From assembly GCA_002453475.1 (NCBI GenBank), contig DKGY01000055.1:54107-64281 (forward strand): a DNA stretch of 10,175 bases, in the 5' to 3' direction. The DNA is from Clostridium sp. UBA6758 (GTDB lineage Bacteria > Bacillota > Clostridia > Clostridiales > Clostridiaceae). Below are positions 2,279 to 10,175 of the stretch, in pieces (position 1 is the stretch's first letter; each line of letters begins with the position of its first letter). Both the position numbers and the translations under genes were made by a program. Below the pieces are notes generated by a model that saw nothing but the letters and a program-made list of their open reading frames with translations, was not told where the DNA came from and searched no databases.

Positions 2279-2929
2279 ATGATGAAAAAATTTATTTTAA
2301 ACACTGTTATTTCTATTACAGGTTTTGTTTTTATTATTCTTATCTCTACTTTAATAGTAACAAGTATAAAACCTATTTATACTTATAGTATTAATAAATT
2401 TAATATGGAGGAAAGAACAAGTTTATCTATTGTTGAGATGAAAGAAAATTATTCTTATGTGATAGATTATTTGTTATATAATAACAATGATAAATTTGAA
2501 CTACCATCTTTAGAATCATCAGAGGCAGGAGATTTTCATTTTAAAGAGGTAAAAGAATTATTTAGTTTAGCTAAGATTACTATATTAAGTTTAGCAATTA
2601 TGTTAACAATACTATTTGTACTGTATACTAGAATCTATAAAAGCTATAACTATATAAAATATATCTCTATTATATCAATAATAACTCCACTTATAACGTC
2701 AATTGTTATAAGCACTAATTTTAAATTTTTCTTTACAGTATTCCATAAAATATTTTTTAATAATGATAAATGGATTTTTGATCCTATTACAGATCCTATT
2801 ATAAATATACTTCCTGAAGAATTTTTTTCATTATGTGCTGGTGCCATTGGAATTCTTTGTATAGTCATTGGAGTAATATTATATGTGACATATTACAGTT
2901 ATAATAAAAATAATTTAAAAAGATATTAG
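2279..2929 (+). CDS. DUF1461 / TIGR01906-type integral membrane protein
   Basis: This 216-residue protein has four hydrophobic segments at about 7-29, 97-117, 127-147 and 184-206, so it is an integral membrane protein with a polar loop of roughly 65 residues between the first two. The conserved block at 155-181 has the form FHKIFF..D.W.FDP.TDPII..LPE. That block and the preceding HFKEVKELF segment at 87-95 are what I recall as the signature of the DUF1461/TIGR01906 family in Firmicutes, whose function is unknown. Two tandem ATG codons (2279 and 2282) could start it. AGGGG at 2271-2275 is three bases before the first and six before the second, so the second may be used as often. It is a single-gene unit with its own promoter upstream and a terminator overlapping its stop codon. 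It lies divergent to hemA, but nothing in the protein links it to tetrapyrrole metabolism. Confidence 0.85.
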   Translation: MMKKFILNTVISITGFVFIILISTLIVTSIKPIYTYSINKFNMEERTSLSIVEMKENYSYVIDYLLYNNNDKFELPSLESSEAGDFHFKEVKELFSLAKITILSLAIMLTILFVLYTRIYKSYNYIKYISIISIITPLITSIVISTNFKFFFTVFHKIFFNNDKWIFDPITDPIINILPEEFFSLCAGAIGILCIVIGVILYVTYYSYNKNNLKRY

Positions 2930-2949
2930 AAAAATTCTAATATCTTTTT
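2917..2949. terminator. Bidirectional intrinsic terminator between convergent genes
   Basis: The core stem pairs GATATTAGAA with TTCTAATATC around a three-base loop at 2932-2934. It is extended by five As on the left pairing with five Ts on the right. A U-run therefore follows the stem in transcripts from either strand. It includes the stop codon of the plus-strand membrane protein gene (2927-2929) and lies just beyond the stop of the minus-strand phosphatase gene at 2954, so it can end both transcription units. Confidence 0.85.
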
Positions 2950-2953
2950 AAAC

Positions 2954-4129
2954 TTAAAGATAAGTTATACATACTTTTTTACCTAATGCAGTTAATAATC
3001 TTGATATATCTTTAACAATTTTGATTTTTAAATTAAATTCATCTGGAAAAGATGGATTTTGATGAGCTGGATTAACTGCTTGCCCTACATATATATCTAT
3101 GGAGGTACCTTCATTAATTAGCATATTAGTAATTCTAGAAGCTCCATCAGAGCCATTTATAGTGCAGGGTATAGTGTTCTTTTTAATAGCAGTTAGATAA
3201 TTTTTTAATAAATCTTTTACTTTATTCAAAGTTAGTATACCCTCTGTAACCAAGTCTATACCTTTCATATATCCCATGGGTGGGACCTCTGAAGTATAAT
3301 GCTTTAAGTCTATTTCTATTGGAGTGTGTAGTGCATTAGATATTATATTAGCTGTAGTGCCACCACATACAATTTTTTTACCAGTGGTATTTTTCACAAG
3401 ATTTATAAGAACGCTATCGTCGTCTTTAATTTTAGGTGGTCCAGTAAAGATAGATATATGTTGTTCCTTTCTTATCTTAATAGTTACTACAGTGGTATCA
3501 TCGCCAGGTTTATTATCATATAAGTCTTTACATACTTCTAACAATTGTCTACATATATTTTGAGCAATCACTTCTTTATGGAGTACATTAGTGAGATATC
3601 TGTTTATATGAGGCCATTCCCAACCTAAATTTAAGAGCCCACCTACACCGGCATGTACAACTCCGTCGCTTATAATAACTAGGGCGTCGGATTCATTCAT
3701 GTAAAATCTGCTTTCAAAAATAACCTTACCATTTACTATACGTCTATTCTTTTTAATGTCACAACTTCGATTATTTCTAAAAAGAAAAACAGGAGGGTTG
3801 TCATATTCTACCATATACACCTCGCCACTATTTTTAATTTTCACGATTGTAAAGGTGGAGTAGGCTAATTTTCTAACTTGACACTCAGGTAATGTATTAA
3901 TTATAGTATCTATAGTTTCATCTATGGTAGCTCCTTCTTTTAACATAGTAACTGCAATTTTTGATGTTAAAGTTCCTAATATATTAGCTTTAACACCACT
4001 GCCAAGACCATCTGACATTACTACTATAATTCCATCTTCTGTTTTAGCAATTTCAACATTGTCACCACAAAGTTCTTCCCCGTGCTTATTCATACTCATA
4101 TTGGCTACATCTAAGTAATATTTTCTCAT
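2954..4129 (-). CDS. SpoIIE-type PP2C serine phosphatase with a C-terminal extension
   Basis: This 391-residue protein is a predicted PPM/PP2C protein phosphatase of the SpoIIE class, which typically dephosphorylates anti-anti-sigma (STAS) proteins on serine. The catalytic domain fills residues 1-220. The metal-binding acidic residues can be seen in CGDN (Asp23), MSDGLGSG (Asp40), IISDGV (Asp155) and PGDDTT (Asp210 and Asp211), so it should be active. There is no membrane segment, unlike true SpoIIE of about 800 residues, so this is not sporulation SpoIIE itself. Residues 225-391 form an extra region containing CGGTTANI at 255-262 and a Gly-Tyr-Met-Lys-Gly stretch near 286-290, which I cannot assign. 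The start has AGGAAG six bases upstream and begins one base after the stop of the hydrogenase-like gene, so the two are translationally coupled. The likely role is the output of a redox or hydrogen sensor. No STAS or anti-sigma kinase gene is nearby. Confidence 0.88.
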   Translation of the reverse strand: MRKYYLDVANMSMNKHGEELCGDNVEIAKTEDGIIVVMSDGLGSGVKANILGTLTSKIAVTMLKEGATIDETIDTIINTLPECQVRKLAYSTFTIVKIKNSGEVYMVEYDNPPVFLFRNNRSCDIKKNRRIVNGKVIFESRFYMNESDALVIISDGVVHAGVGGLLNLGWEWPHINRYLTNVLHKEVIAQNICRQLLEVCKDLYDNKPGDDTTVVTIKIRKEQHISIFTGPPKIKDDDSVLINLVKNTTGKKIVCGGTTANIISNALHTPIEIDLKHYTSEVPPMGYMKGIDLVTEGILTLNKVKDLLKNYLTAIKKNTIPCTINGSDGASRITNMLINEGTSIDIYVGQAVNPAHQNPSFPDEFNLKIKIVKDISRLLTALGKKVCITYL

Positions 4130-4130
4130 A

Positions 4131-5831
4131 TTAGTCTTCCTTTTCTAATACTTTTTTTAATTCTAAGATAGCAACTTTAGTTTCTGCAGTAGTTTCACCA
4201 AGTAAGCTAGCTATTTCTTGTGCAACCATCATTTGCTTATTTATAATTGATTGGGTAACATCAATAGATTTATGCTTTAGTTCAATTAACTCTAACTTTC
4301 TGTTTTCCTCTTCTGTTATATCTGTAAATGTTACCAATAAAGATGAGTGATTTTTAATATAGATTATACTTTTATATCCATGAAAATCTAATTGACTATA
4401 GAATACCTTTTTACCTAAAATATTTTTTTTTGTTTCAGCTACTTTTTTAAAATCTAAGTCATGTATTATTTCAGTTATAGGAAATCCTATTACACTTTCA
4501 TTTTCACAATTTAAAAACATTTTTCTTCCAGAAGGATTAATGTCTTTAATTAATAAGTTATCATCAATTATAATCAGAGCATTAGGTGAATTTTTAAATA
4601 TTTCACTATTCATATTTTCAGCTAATGACCTCATATAAGGTACACACATTTCAACTTGAGACATTCCGTTATAAACGGCAATAGCTTTTTCAACACAGGT
4701 GTTATATCCACAAGCACCACAGTTTAATTCATCTTCTTTAGTGTATTTTCCCATTTGTTTAAGAAGAACTTTAATTTCATCTTCTTCAGGGGATAGCATG
4801 TGTATCTTTTTATTTTCATAATTTCTTGTAAGATTAGATTTATTTATATTGATAACTTTTGATTTGTTATTTTGGGTTTTTAAGTAATCTTGAATTCTTT
4901 GAAGTCTGGTGTATACAGATTCATTATTAGATAGTGTGCCTGGACCACCAAGACAACTTTCATTACATGCACTTAATTCTATACACACATTTTTTAAAGT
5001 ATTATTTTTAAGTTCCTCTAAAATAACTTTACAATTTTCGAGACCGTGAACTCTAATTACAATTAAATCTTTTTTATCAATAGTAGGCCTTATAGCATTT
5101 AATATTCCGCCAACTACAGGATAGCGATCACCTCTAGTTGTACCACTAAAATCCACATCTCCATCTTCTAGTTGAAAATAGTCTATATCACTATCTTTTA
5201 TAAAATCATTGATTTCATCAAAGGTTAGTACAGAATCAACAAATCCTAAATTAGATTCAGATAAAGCTTCATATTTTTTAGATACACATGGACCTATAAA
5301 AACAGTATAAGATTCATCATATCTTTGTTTTATGCTTTTCCCGTGGGCAACCATAGGAGAGGATACTGGTAAAACTAATGGTATTAATTCAGGATAATAT
5401 TTTTCGATTAACATTACTATGGAAGGACAGCAACTTGTGATGAATTCGCTATTTGAACTACAATCAATCCTAGATTCATATTCTTGAGTTACTAGTTCTG
5501 CACCTATGGAAACCTCTTCAATGTAAGAAAAACCTAATTTTCTTAGAGCAGTTATCAATTTATGAGGATGAGAGAATACTCCTCTAAAAGCAGGTGCTAA
5601 TTGAGCTACAACTGTTTTATTGCTATTTAATGCTACCTTTACATCATCAATATCTGAAAGTACATGACGAGCATTTTGAGGGCATACTACTAAACAGTGA
5701 CCGCAAGAAATACATCTATCTTCTTGAATTTTAGCTTGATCATTTAATACTTCTATAGCTTTAACTGTACAAGTACGTACACATTTGTAGCAATTTTTAC
5801 AGTTAGCTGATGAAAAATTCATTACTTGCAT
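4131..5831 (-). CDS. [FeFe]-hydrogenase-like protein with PAS domain (HydS-like putative sensor)
   Basis: This 566-residue cytoplasmic iron-sulfur protein combines a hydrogenase core with a sensor domain. Residues 1-55 hold a two-cluster ferredoxin domain (Cys11, 14, 17, 21 and Cys40, 43, 46, 50). Residues 60-320 are the H-cluster domain. Its three motifs are reduced: TSCCPS at 132-137, GPCVSKK at 180-186 and ELSACNESCLGG at 285-296. The four cluster ligands (Cys135, Cys182, Cys289, Cys293) and the proton-transfer Cys134 are present, but the Met residues of catalytic MPC and E.MAC motifs are Gly and Ser. A further FeS domain at 371-396 has CGACGYNTC and a distant Cys396. A PAS domain follows at about 405-508, then a helical tail. 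This layout matches group C (HydS) putative sensory hydrogenases, which are typically adjacent to PP2C phosphatases, as here. The ATG at 5831 has AGGGTG just upstream and overlaps the preceding gene by 10 bases; an ATG at 5822 (TAATG overlap) is less well placed. Maturation would need HydEFG, which is not in the window. Confidence 0.9.
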   Translation of the reverse strand: MQVMNFSSANCKNCYKCVRTCTVKAIEVLNDQAKIQEDRCISCGHCLVVCPQNARHVLSDIDDVKVALNSNKTVVAQLAPAFRGVFSHPHKLITALRKLGFSYIEEVSIGAELVTQEYESRIDCSSNSEFITSCCPSIVMLIEKYYPELIPLVLPVSSPMVAHGKSIKQRYDESYTVFIGPCVSKKYEALSESNLGFVDSVLTFDEINDFIKDSDIDYFQLEDGDVDFSGTTRGDRYPVVGGILNAIRPTIDKKDLIVIRVHGLENCKVILEELKNNTLKNVCIELSACNESCLGGPGTLSNNESVYTRLQRIQDYLKTQNNKSKVININKSNLTRNYENKKIHMLSPEEDEIKVLLKQMGKYTKEDELNCGACGYNTCVEKAIAVYNGMSQVEMCVPYMRSLAENMNSEIFKNSPNALIIIDDNLLIKDINPSGRKMFLNCENESVIGFPITEIIHDLDFKKVAETKKNILGKKVFYSQLDFHGYKSIIYIKNHSSLLVTFTDITEEENRKLELIELKHKSIDVTQSIINKQMMVAQEIASLLGETTAETKVAILELKKVLEKED

Positions 5832-6073
5832 AAATTCACCCTCTTAATTATATATTCTTCAAAGAATTTATCTACTTCATCTTCATTTACAGTATAAATT
5901 TTATCATCTACCGTAACACATACTGAATCAGTACAATGACCAAGACAAAATGAAGCTTTTAATTCTATTTTATCTGTTAAATTGTTTAATTCTATTAAAC
6001 TCTTAATTCGGTTTATAACATTGTGAGAACCTCTTACATAGCAAGCACTTCCCACACAAACTTTAACAATCAA
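5822..6073 (-). CDS. Small thioredoxin-like [2Fe-2S] ferredoxin (NuoE C-terminal-like)
   Basis: This 83-residue protein has the cluster-binding pattern of the thioredoxin-fold [2Fe-2S] family, the C-terminal half of the 24-kDa NuoE/HydC subunit. The ligands are Cys6 and Cys11 in CVGSAC and Cys43 and Cys47 in CLGHC. It lacks the N-terminal helical part of full NuoE (about 160 residues), so it is a stand-alone electron carrier. It is first in the operon and its stop overlaps the start of the hydrogenase-like gene by 10 bases, so it probably exchanges electrons with that protein's ferredoxin domain. The start is a TTG at 6073; no in-frame ATG or GTG upstream fits, and a very strong AAGGAGGG lies eight bases before it. 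A near-consensus promoter lies directly upstream. Confidence 0.9.
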   Translation of the reverse strand: MIVKVCVGSACYVRGSHNVINRIKSLIELNNLTDKIELKASFCLGHCTDSVCVTVDDKIYTVNEDEVDKFFEEYIIKRVNLCK

Positions 6074-6114
6074 AATAAAATCCCTCCTTAATCTGTATAT
6101 AACTTATACAATAA

Positions 6115-6143
6115 ATTATAGAACTTTGGTAAAACACCGTCAA
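6115..6143 (-). promoter_or_regulatory. Sigma-A-type promoter for the [2Fe-2S]/HydS-like/phosphatase operon
   Basis: On the minus strand TTGACG (6143-6138) is followed by a 17-base spacer and a perfect TATAAT (6120-6115). Transcription would begin near 6108, leaving a short leader of about 35 nt to the TTG start at 6073. Near-consensus housekeeping elements suggest substantial constitutive transcription unless an operator that I cannot see is present. Confidence 0.72.
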
Positions 6144-8745: not shown

Positions 8746-8766
8746 TATGATTGAAAATCAAATAGT

Positions 8767-8916
8767 ATTTTAGGTGCTTTTTAAAAGTGAAAAGGGAATA
8801 TGGTTAAAATCCATAGCAGCCCCCGCTACTGTAAATGATGACGACCCTCAAAATACCACTCTTCATAGGGGAAGGTGAGGTTAGAATGATTCATAAGCCA
8901 GGAGACCTGCCTAAAT
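8767..8916 (+). ncRNA. Cobalamin riboswitch aptamer
   Basis: The stretch carries the conserved elements of the B12 riboswitch in order: the opening AGGTGC (8772-8777), AAAAGGGAAT followed by an ATGG/CCAT hairpin, AGCAGCCCCCGCTACTGTAA, GACGACC, CCACT, GGGGAAGGTGAGG, and the B12 box AGCCAGGAGACCTGCC (8896-8911). The closing P1 helix pairs the TTTAGG ending at 8774 with CCTAAA at 8910-8915. When adenosylcobalamin or a related cobamide binds, expression of the downstream corrinoid gene should fall. It sits between the promoter at 8717-8745 and a terminator at 9059-9087. Confidence 0.95.
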
Positions 8917-9058
8917 GTAAGCTTTCGGAGGGAAATGAGCTATTTTAGTGGCTAAGTTAATATGTATAAGAAAATTAAAAAATTTTGTAAGTTTTATCTT
9001 ACTTATATTTAAACTTATATTCTTATTTTACTAAGATGGAAATTTTTTATTTATTTGG

Positions 9059-9118: not shown

Positions 9119-10175
9119 ATGGCTAAAATAATGATTCAAGGTACAGCTTCTTCTGTAGGGAAAAGCATACTAGTAACTGCATTATGTAGAATATTTAAAC
9201 AAGACGGATATTCGGTATGCCCGTATAAGTCACAAAATATGTCTCTTAACTCATATATAACACTGGATGGAAAAGAAATGGGGCGTGCCCAAGTGTTACA
9301 AGCTTACGCTGCTGGTCTTGAACCACAGGTATATATGAATCCTATTCTGCTAAAACCAACTACAGATAAAAATTGTCAAATAATTTTTAATGGAGAAGTC
9401 TATGGTTACTCTAATGCAAAGGAATATCATAATTTAAAAGTTAAATTCAAGGATGATTTAAAATCTGCTTTTGAAGAATTGGAAAATCAATTTGATATTA
9501 TTGTTATGGAAGGTGCAGGAAGCCCTGCAGAAATAAATTTAAGAGATAATGATATTGTTAATATGGGTATGGCTGAACTAATAGATGCGCCTGTTTTACT
9601 TGTAGGTGATATCGATAAGGGAGGCGTATTTGCATCTTTATTAGGTACTATTATGCTCCTTAGTGATGCTGAGAAGGACAGAGTTAAGGGAACTATTATA
9701 AATAAGTTTAGAGGAGATATATCTTTACTTAAACCAGGAGTTGATAGTTTAGAGGAGCTAACTCATAGAGATTGCTTAGGGGTTGTTCCATATTTTAAAT
9801 TAGATTTAGAAGATGAAGATGGAGCTGTTGACCTTAATAAGAACATCACAGATAAAATAGATATAGCTATTATAAGATTGCCACATATATCAAACTTTAC
9901 TGATTTTGATGCATTATCTATAGAACCAGATGTTTCTGTAAGATATGTGGAAACTGTAAACGAATTTAAAACTCCTGATTTAGTTATAATTCCTGGAACT
10001 AAAAATACACTAGGAGACTTAGAATATCTAAAAAAATCAGGTTTATATAACAAGATTAGAGAATATGAGGGTAATGGAAAAATTATAGGTATATGTGGTG
10101 GATATCAAATGCTAGGTAAAGTACTAGAAGATCCTTATGGGGTTGAAACTTTACTAGAGTCTATGGATGGATTAG
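9119..10175 (+). CDS. cobQ: Cobyric acid synthase, 3' end outside window
   Basis: This ATP-dependent amidase (also called CbiP) uses glutamine to amidate side chains b, d, e and g of the adenosyl corrin ring, forming cobyric acid late in B12 synthesis. The 352 residues visible belong to a family of about 500. The N-terminal synthetase domain has the P-loop-like GTASSVGKS at 8-16, the [11 protein letters not shown] motif, MGRAQ, the NPILLKP segment, [13 protein letters not shown] and [13 protein letters not shown]. The C-terminal glutamine amidotransferase domain begins near [12 protein letters not shown], and the catalytic cysteine is Cys326 in [10 protein letters not shown]. The ATG at 9119 has AGAAGG eight bases upstream. 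The gene is directly preceded by a cobalamin riboswitch and terminator, so it is repressed by B12 and is probably the first gene of a cobalamin operon that continues to the right. Confidence 0.97.

Follow-up and report, generated by a model that had tools for sequence, protein, structure and literature searches.

Three adjacent genes of the minus strand at positions 2954-6073 of the window (the whole stretch of 10,175 nucleotides from Clostridium sp. UBA6758 that was analysed) encode a NuoE-like protein, HfsB ([FeFe]-hydrogenase-like) and HfsC (SpoIIE-like phosphatase). HfsB and HfsC are almost obligate partners, which is new here. The trio is read, with slightly better than an even chance of being right, as a hydrogen-gated phosphatase switch: the near-invariant C-terminal tail of HfsB would hold HfsC, and the output would be adhE and the partner hydrogenase genes. 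With it, the cell is predicted to sense hydrogen and to adapt its fermentation. Hydrogen sensing and the acetate/ethanol/H2 shifts of fermenting bacteria matter for syntrophy, biofuel yield and rumen methane, and how a sensory [FeFe] protein is linked to gene expression is a standing question.

Pairing of HfsB and HfsC: The comparison of homologous neighbourhoods proposed in the earlier note was carried out on the best 80 loci of the HfsC search, on which the upstream and downstream counts rest; hfsB was directly upstream of hfsC in 80/80, overlapping it or at most 5 bases away in 74, and a same-strand NuoE-like gene was found upstream in 73. Chance is no plausible account of the 80/80. HfsC was present in 120 of 398 genomes (phylum of Clostridium tagluense) and in 61 of 206 genomes (family of Clostridium tagluense). 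HfsB places were collected by a profile search of the 398 genomes (150 matches listed, more existed; up to 3 candidates per genome scored), and HfsC was counted as next when directly downstream on the same strand at −100 to 700 bases. Among the matches listed, HfsC was next in 128/130 places where the HfsB match reached the tail vs 0/20 where it ended earlier (Fisher p 6e-23; the rows are related by descent and the p value ignores kinship); of the two tail-reaching exceptions, one is the leading copy in an HfsB tandem and the other has its HfsC piece on another contig. Sixteen of 147 HfsC pieces had no listed HfsB; HfsB was found in L104 and L110 for two of them and in 11 of 12 fetched, and two fragments remained. 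The part of HfsB that HfsC needs is, we infer, the PAS-plus-tail end. The coupling of a sensory-type [FeFe] protein to a phosphatase, suggested earlier from domain content, is thus backed by conservation, by the near-obligate pairing and by published genetics of the gene pair.

The 20 listed HfsB-like hydrogenases with early-ending matches stop at profile positions 406-521, and none adjoins HfsC; 19 of the 20 sit in open frames of 736-894 residues and probably have another C-terminus (for example G359:C38:7461-8684 and G269:C1:1786914-1788140). Tandem HfsB copies precede one hfsC in L009 (6198-9995, NuoE-like gene between) and at G367:C124:30287-34076. A second, diverged hfsB-hfsC pair was seen in genomes with a closer HfsC elsewhere (G612:C66:32507-33658, L176; G610:C8:80177-81331, L177; G002:C13:22910-24067, L113), and is followed in L113 and L177 by another hydrogenase-like gene.

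Within the next three genes downstream, the best 80 loci contained HfsD-like genes (32), HydABC (12) and TnpB-like genes (6); one locus had both HfsD and HydABC, 28 had none of the three kinds, and three (L003, L037, L040) ended less than 600 bases from hfsC and were counted as contig end. HydABC genes are missing from the window, as the earlier note had stated (none among its seven open reading frames scanned with Pfam, nor an ATPase gene), and a trio of this composition is ordinary, since 28/80 loci are likewise.

HfsB: The layout is two 4Fe-4S motifs, the H-cluster domain, a C-terminal FeS motif, a weak PAS-like region and a conserved tail; Pfam matches: Fe_hyd_lg_C (197.8 bits), ferredoxin-type 4Fe-4S and the FeS domain PF04060. 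In the alignment (77 rows including the window; L045, L052, L053 and L077 dropped as truncated or split) the H-cluster ligands C135, C182, C289 and C293 (motifs L1, L2, L3) were invariant in 77/77 rows; C134 was present in 41/77, window included, and the C299-type cysteine is reported in only 17% of sensory proteins (PMC10055695). The position of CpI M353 is G180 and that of S319 is L154 (alignment to CpI), the M497 position is S287 (alignment to 8a6t_A), and the E279 and E282 positions sit in a gapped part of the alignment; the slow TmHydS is reported to carry G and S at these two methionine positions as well (PMC8163306, PMC10055695). The Cx2Cx4Cx16C spacing of the C-terminal motif matches that published for HydS proteins (PMC8163306). 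The PAS-like stretch passes a PAS cut-off in 2/6 relatives scanned (L070, L036). By most markers of its sequence, not all, HfsB is of the sensory kind. Residues 533-552 are its best-conserved cysteine-free stretch, with 12 positions invariant in 36/36 rows (A3 alignment), and this near-invariant tail is the best candidate for the HfsC docking site.

That HfsB might be a metabolic hydrogenase and the phosphatase an unrelated passenger was weighed on the same features: C134 is kept, and deletion of the hfs operon lowers H2 output in Thermoanaerobacterium (PMC11837493, PMC5707799), whereas deletion of hfsB only is reported to have raised hydrogenase activity (PMC5707799) and HfsC pairing tracks the PAS-plus-tail end, not the hydrogenase domain; this account is considered highly improbable.

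NuoE-like protein: 2Fe-2S_thioredx, 36.1 bits (cut-off 24.8, Pfam); the match is confined to the C-terminal half of the family profile (NuoE, 67-142 of 145), and Cys residues are at 6, 11, 43, 47, 52 and 82. Among its relatives with solved structures are HydC-type and other hydrogenase subunits, which we take to be electron carriers. The signal of the same switch could be ferredoxin/NADH redox state, with the NuoE-like protein and the 4Fe-4S motifs as its point of entry and the H-cluster as electron sink instead of H2 receptor, and the frequent upstream NuoE-like gene, the hydrogenase-subunit relatives, rex within the Ruminococcus albus cluster and a frame in L123 and L124 that is presumably Rex-like would all fit. 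On the other side, all four H-cluster ligands are invariant, which is unlikely without H2 chemistry, and the fermentation pattern of R. albus is reported to have tracked the H2 level (PMC6776011); a redox signal is regarded as rather unlikely.

HfsC: SpoIIE, 61.7 bits (cut-off 25, Pfam); SpoIIE equivalog TIGR02865, 46 bits vs cut-off 490.8, so HfsC is not SpoIIE proper. By fold and sequence it is of the SpoIIE, RsbU, RsbX phosphatase type, and the PP2C metal-binding residues D23, D40, D155, D210 and D211 were found in 81/81 rows. No domain stands ahead of the catalytic one. The C-terminal domain gave no Pfam match in the Pfam scan; its conservation is a new feature here (A1 alignment: 56/121 available phosphatases; A2: 62/81 C-terminal fragments). 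In the HfsC of genome G013 the DGLGSG motif reads DGLGTT.

In the hydrogen-gated switch as proposed, H2, or electrons arriving through the [2Fe-2S] protein, would shift the state of the H-cluster; the C-terminal Fe-S and PAS region would relay this change to the HfsB tail, and the tail would restrain or release HfsC. HfsC, having no input domain in front, would then dephosphorylate a protein probably other than a dedicated STAS protein, and its C-terminal domain is proposed to bind HfsB or the substrate. The output would be expression of adhE and the partner hydrogenase genes. In Thermoanaerobacterium saccharolyticum, deletion of either hfsA or hfsB is reported to raise the adhE transcript (two- and threefold) and to increase the ethanol yield, and deletion of hfsC or hfsD to give no such rise (PMC5707799); the eight-gene cluster of R. 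albus is reported to drop 111-fold in co-culture (PMC6776011). The earlier statement that signal, target and output are not established is, by these two reports, partly outdated as to the output. adhE was found in or near the trio operon, on either side, in L026, L028, L080, L081, L114 (about 4 kb off), L115 and L178-L181, in agreement with adhE as output.

Several points weigh against the switch as proposed. The adhE linkage is rare (3 of the best 80 loci), and in G013 (L144, G013:C1:47592-48719) HfsC was found without HfsB beside it. The window protein retains C134, the cysteine that relays protons in fast enzymes, and turnover could be above that of TmHydS. The PAS match of the window protein is below cut-off (PAS_8, 17.2 vs 21.8 bits), so that of the domain content given in the earlier note 2Fe-2S_thioredx, Fe_hyd_lg_C and SpoIIE stood above their cut-offs and PAS did not. 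C. thermocellum and T. mathranii are reported to have gained no more than moderately from hfsB deletion (PMC5707799), and in T. thermosaccharolyticum hfsD overexpression is reported to restore high ethanol without hfsABC (PMC11837493); HfsC is thus not always needed.

Target of HfsC: It had been supposed that the phosphatase acts on a STAS-type protein encoded elsewhere and that an anti-sigma-like ATPase gene is often beside such trios; neither supposition was supported. In all four closest genomes (G612, G614, G615, G610; possibly incomplete drafts, closest among the 206 family genomes) a small STAS protein is encoded beside an RsbW-like ATPase, which we take to be the spoIIAA-spoIIAB arrangement. 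A second free STAS was not found in G612, G614 and G615; one extra free STAS (95 residues) was found in G610. Further matches to STAS belong to long frames (541-561 residues). A profile search for RsbW-like ATPases (15 seeds, of which L140 seems to be in a wrong frame, slightly weakening the profile) in L001-L126 and the window gave 5 matches in 4 loci (L056, L023 twice, L025, L017), none less than 2.5 kb from the trio, L083-L112 holding only about 1.5 kb of flank on each side; a first regular-expression search for anti-sigma-like ATPases, a weak test, gave no match. No STAS or RsbW-type ATPase gene was detected beside the phosphatase among the window open reading frames scanned (Pfam). Because free STAS proteins are limited and no RsbW-like gene was detected near the trio in the loci scanned, a dedicated STAS substrate is unlikely in the closest relatives; as default target it is weakened, three of the four genomes having a SpoIIAA-like STAS only, and SpoIIAA would be the remaining STAS candidate there. 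A histidine-kinase-like ATPase is reported beside group D TamHydS (PMC8163306), and this neighbour is perhaps the source of the earlier ATPase claim.

A classical partner switch, in which the substrate of HfsC is a STAS anti-anti-sigma factor (necessarily SpoIIAA in the closest relatives) and H2 is thereby linked to sigma F and sporulation, would suit the phosphatase type of HfsC and the STAS gene beside an RsbW-like ATPase in all four genomes; the want of a second free STAS in G612, G614 and G615, the distance of RsbW-like genes from the trio in the loci scanned and the published output (adhE and hydrogenase expression) make it improbable.

TnpB-like protein in other loci: A TnpB/Cas12f relative (493-524 residues) is encoded right after hfsC in 6/80 of the best loci. 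Compared with solved structures, a 16-row profile hit Cas12f and TnpB over the RuvC and zinc-ribbon part (best E 8e-10). In the order of Ruminiclostridium sufflavum the gene was found in 17/58 genomes, all within the 21 that bear HfsC (Fisher p 3e-11), directly after hfsC in 13 and after the adhE that follows hfsC in 4; with L019, L033, L042 and L070 a total of 21 genomes carry it. At the presumed RuvC catalytic positions, the first aspartate is replaced by Ser or Ala in 16/16 rows; the second is still Glu in 4/16 and the third Asp or Glu in 15/16, against full loss. The solved structure aligned at the first of these positions is a Cas12e variant, named 'd'. The protein was found in 0/12 other genomes, the four closest relatives of the window included (control genomes 4/4 positive); a search of the 398 genomes, run without a positive control, gave no match, and the window contains neither the protein nor the RNA-like element described below.

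Directly 3' of the TnpB-like gene, 21/21 genomes carry a conserved RNA-like block with a GTGC-GCAC hairpin, a CTTAC-GTAAG hairpin and GCAGCTATCTA; an RNA model matches the same 17/58 genomes as the protein, once each. In the A6 alignment (16/21 copies) two-sided changes were found at 4/15 pairs; the covariation score was reached by 0/500 shuffles and the number of further pair types by 197/500. A possible pseudoknot never varies, so that covariation carries no information on it. Rfam gave no credible match for the element. The bases after the pseudoknot GCAGC were compared in six loci for a guide target; the best matches, 8-9 bases in 4/6, were at chance level, and no guide with a target is claimed. 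The find resembles the TldR repressors, nuclease-dead TnpB-like proteins reported beside fliC and csrA (PMC13418256); the word 'hydrogenase' is absent from the main text of that paper, and no link between TnpB and this hydrogenase system was found in titles and abstract openings of the literature compared, the founding TldR paper (Wiegand 2024) lying outside this comparison.

Judged from sequence, the TnpB-like protein and its RNA look like a domesticated RNA-bound regulator that would serve as output arm of the operon. A wider reading is held tentatively, as possible but doubtful: HfsB-HfsC would be a gas-gated phosphatase, and in one branch of the family a domesticated TnpB, altered in RuvC and paired with a pseudoknotted RNA of its own, would form the output arm (NuoE-hfsB-hfsC-[adhE]-tnpB-like-RNA); the window would have the same core without the arm, its target being encoded elsewhere. 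If true, a metabolic gas sensor would govern adhE by way of a transcription factor that is bound to RNA and perhaps guided by it.

Setting in the window: By gene order, the three genes likely form one operon. The nuoE-like/hfsB overlap is 10 bases and the hfsB-hfsC gap 1 base; the compact trio with a near-consensus promoter described at the outset was confirmed in its coordinates and junctions, and the promoter with its 17-base spacing is kept in the four closest relatives fetched (TTGACG in L172, L173 and L175; TTGACT in L174). Taken as a class, promoter-like sites show no enrichment in the window (16 vs shuffle mean 23.7). The hairpin 3' of hfsC has −18.9 kcal/mol (z −6.2); a terminator scan of the window, which demands three G-C pairs, gave no terminator. 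The named proteins most similar to the trio proteins are from Clostridium. L172 and L173 also retain the flanking hemA, lit, yfcE and glyA; L174 and L175 have an intact trio with lit and yfcE farther away, and hemA and glyA were not found there. At 2279-2929 of the window a membrane protein is encoded (Pfam Lit, lipoprotein intramolecular transacylase, 160 bits; NCBIfam equivalog 104 vs cut-off 400). A cobalamin riboswitch (8755-8928, 119 bits) stands ahead of an open frame at 9119-10174 that reaches past the window end and presumably resembles cobyric acid synthase CobQ.

Coordinates of features in the window and, by locus, in other genomes
Feature	Position	Strand	Basis
NuoE-like small [2Fe-2S] protein, 83 aa, TTG start	5822..6073	-	Pfam, upstream neighbour in other loci
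HfsB/HydS-type [FeFe]-hydrogenase-like protein, 566 aa	4131..5831	-	Pfam, alignments
HfsC-type PP2C (SpoIIE-like) phosphatase, 391 aa	2954..4129	-	Pfam, alignment
H-cluster motif L1 TSCCP (C134 at CpI C299 position, C135 cluster ligand)	5424..5438	-	alignment to CpI
C-terminal FeS motif C371-x2-C374-x4-C379-x16-C396	4644..4721	-	77/77 rows
HfsB tail, residues 533-552 (QM..AQ.IA.LLGETTAETK), candidate HfsC docking site	4176..4235	-	conservation, HfsC association
HfsC C-terminal domain, residues 216-391, strongly conserved (GPP, CGGT, NPAHQNP)	2957..3484	-	alignments
Promoter TTGACG-17-TATAAT	6115..6143	-	11/12 consensus bases
Ribosome-binding site AAGGAGGG ahead of TTG start of NuoE-like gene	6082..6089	-	sequence
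A/T-rich inverted repeat, terminator-like hairpin between hfsC and convergent lit	2917..2949	.	folding
TnpB-like gene	L019 7423-8970; L033 7110-8600; L042 8031-9602; L070 11164-12681; L031 11151-12704; L059 11197-12675; L154-L170		
hfsB-hfsC-adhE-tnpB-like, one strand, four genomes	L178 3955-9452; L179, L180, L181		
RNA-like element, about 73-137 bases	L159 2978-3050; L019 8984-9073; L070 12702-12795; equivalents		

Comparison with known systems: By domain content and gene order the window trio is a member of a known putative kind (C3 / HydS / HfsB-HfsC), since group C3 is listed as phosphatase-linked and the hfs and R. albus clusters are published. HydDB [FeFe] group C3, 'Phosphatase-linked (putative)', combines likewise a sensory-type H-cluster protein with a serine/threonine phosphatase (PMC5037454), which bears out the earlier remark that HydS-like proteins beside phosphatases are known; its role is listed there as undetermined, and the passages compared describe neither the tail nor the HfsC C-terminal domain nor the pairing statistics. 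In hfsABCD of T. saccharolyticum and T. thermosaccharolyticum, HfsB ([FeFe] with PAS) is likewise followed by HfsC, a serine phosphatase (PMC5707799, PMC11837493); the window differs in that the gene behind hfsC is the convergent lit and not the HfsD ferredoxin hydrogenase. This likeness is one of domain content, order and pairing, not of Thermoanaerobacterium sequences; HfsA is said to align poorly with known proteins, and its equation with the NuoE-like gene would follow from gene order only. SpoIIE, RsbU and RsbX share the PP2C fold and metal ligands with HfsC, which differs by the missing front domain and the extra C-terminal domain. TmHydS (Thermotoga maritima, group C) and TamHydS (Thermoanaerobacter mathranii, group D) have the same two N-terminal 4Fe-4S motifs, H domain and Cx2Cx4Cx16C motif (PMC10055695, PMC8163306, PMC13104023); window HfsB shares G/S at the methionine positions with TmHydS and differs by keeping the C299-type cysteine. 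The hydS cluster of Ruminococcus albus 7 (pRUMAL01) has the NuoE-like, HydS and SpoIIE-type phosphatase genes in the same order as the window, and differs by two NuoE-like genes and by rex, adhE, an APH/RIO-kinase-like gene and hydA2, the full order being rex-adhE-kinase-like-NuoE-NuoE-hydS-phosphatase-hydA2.

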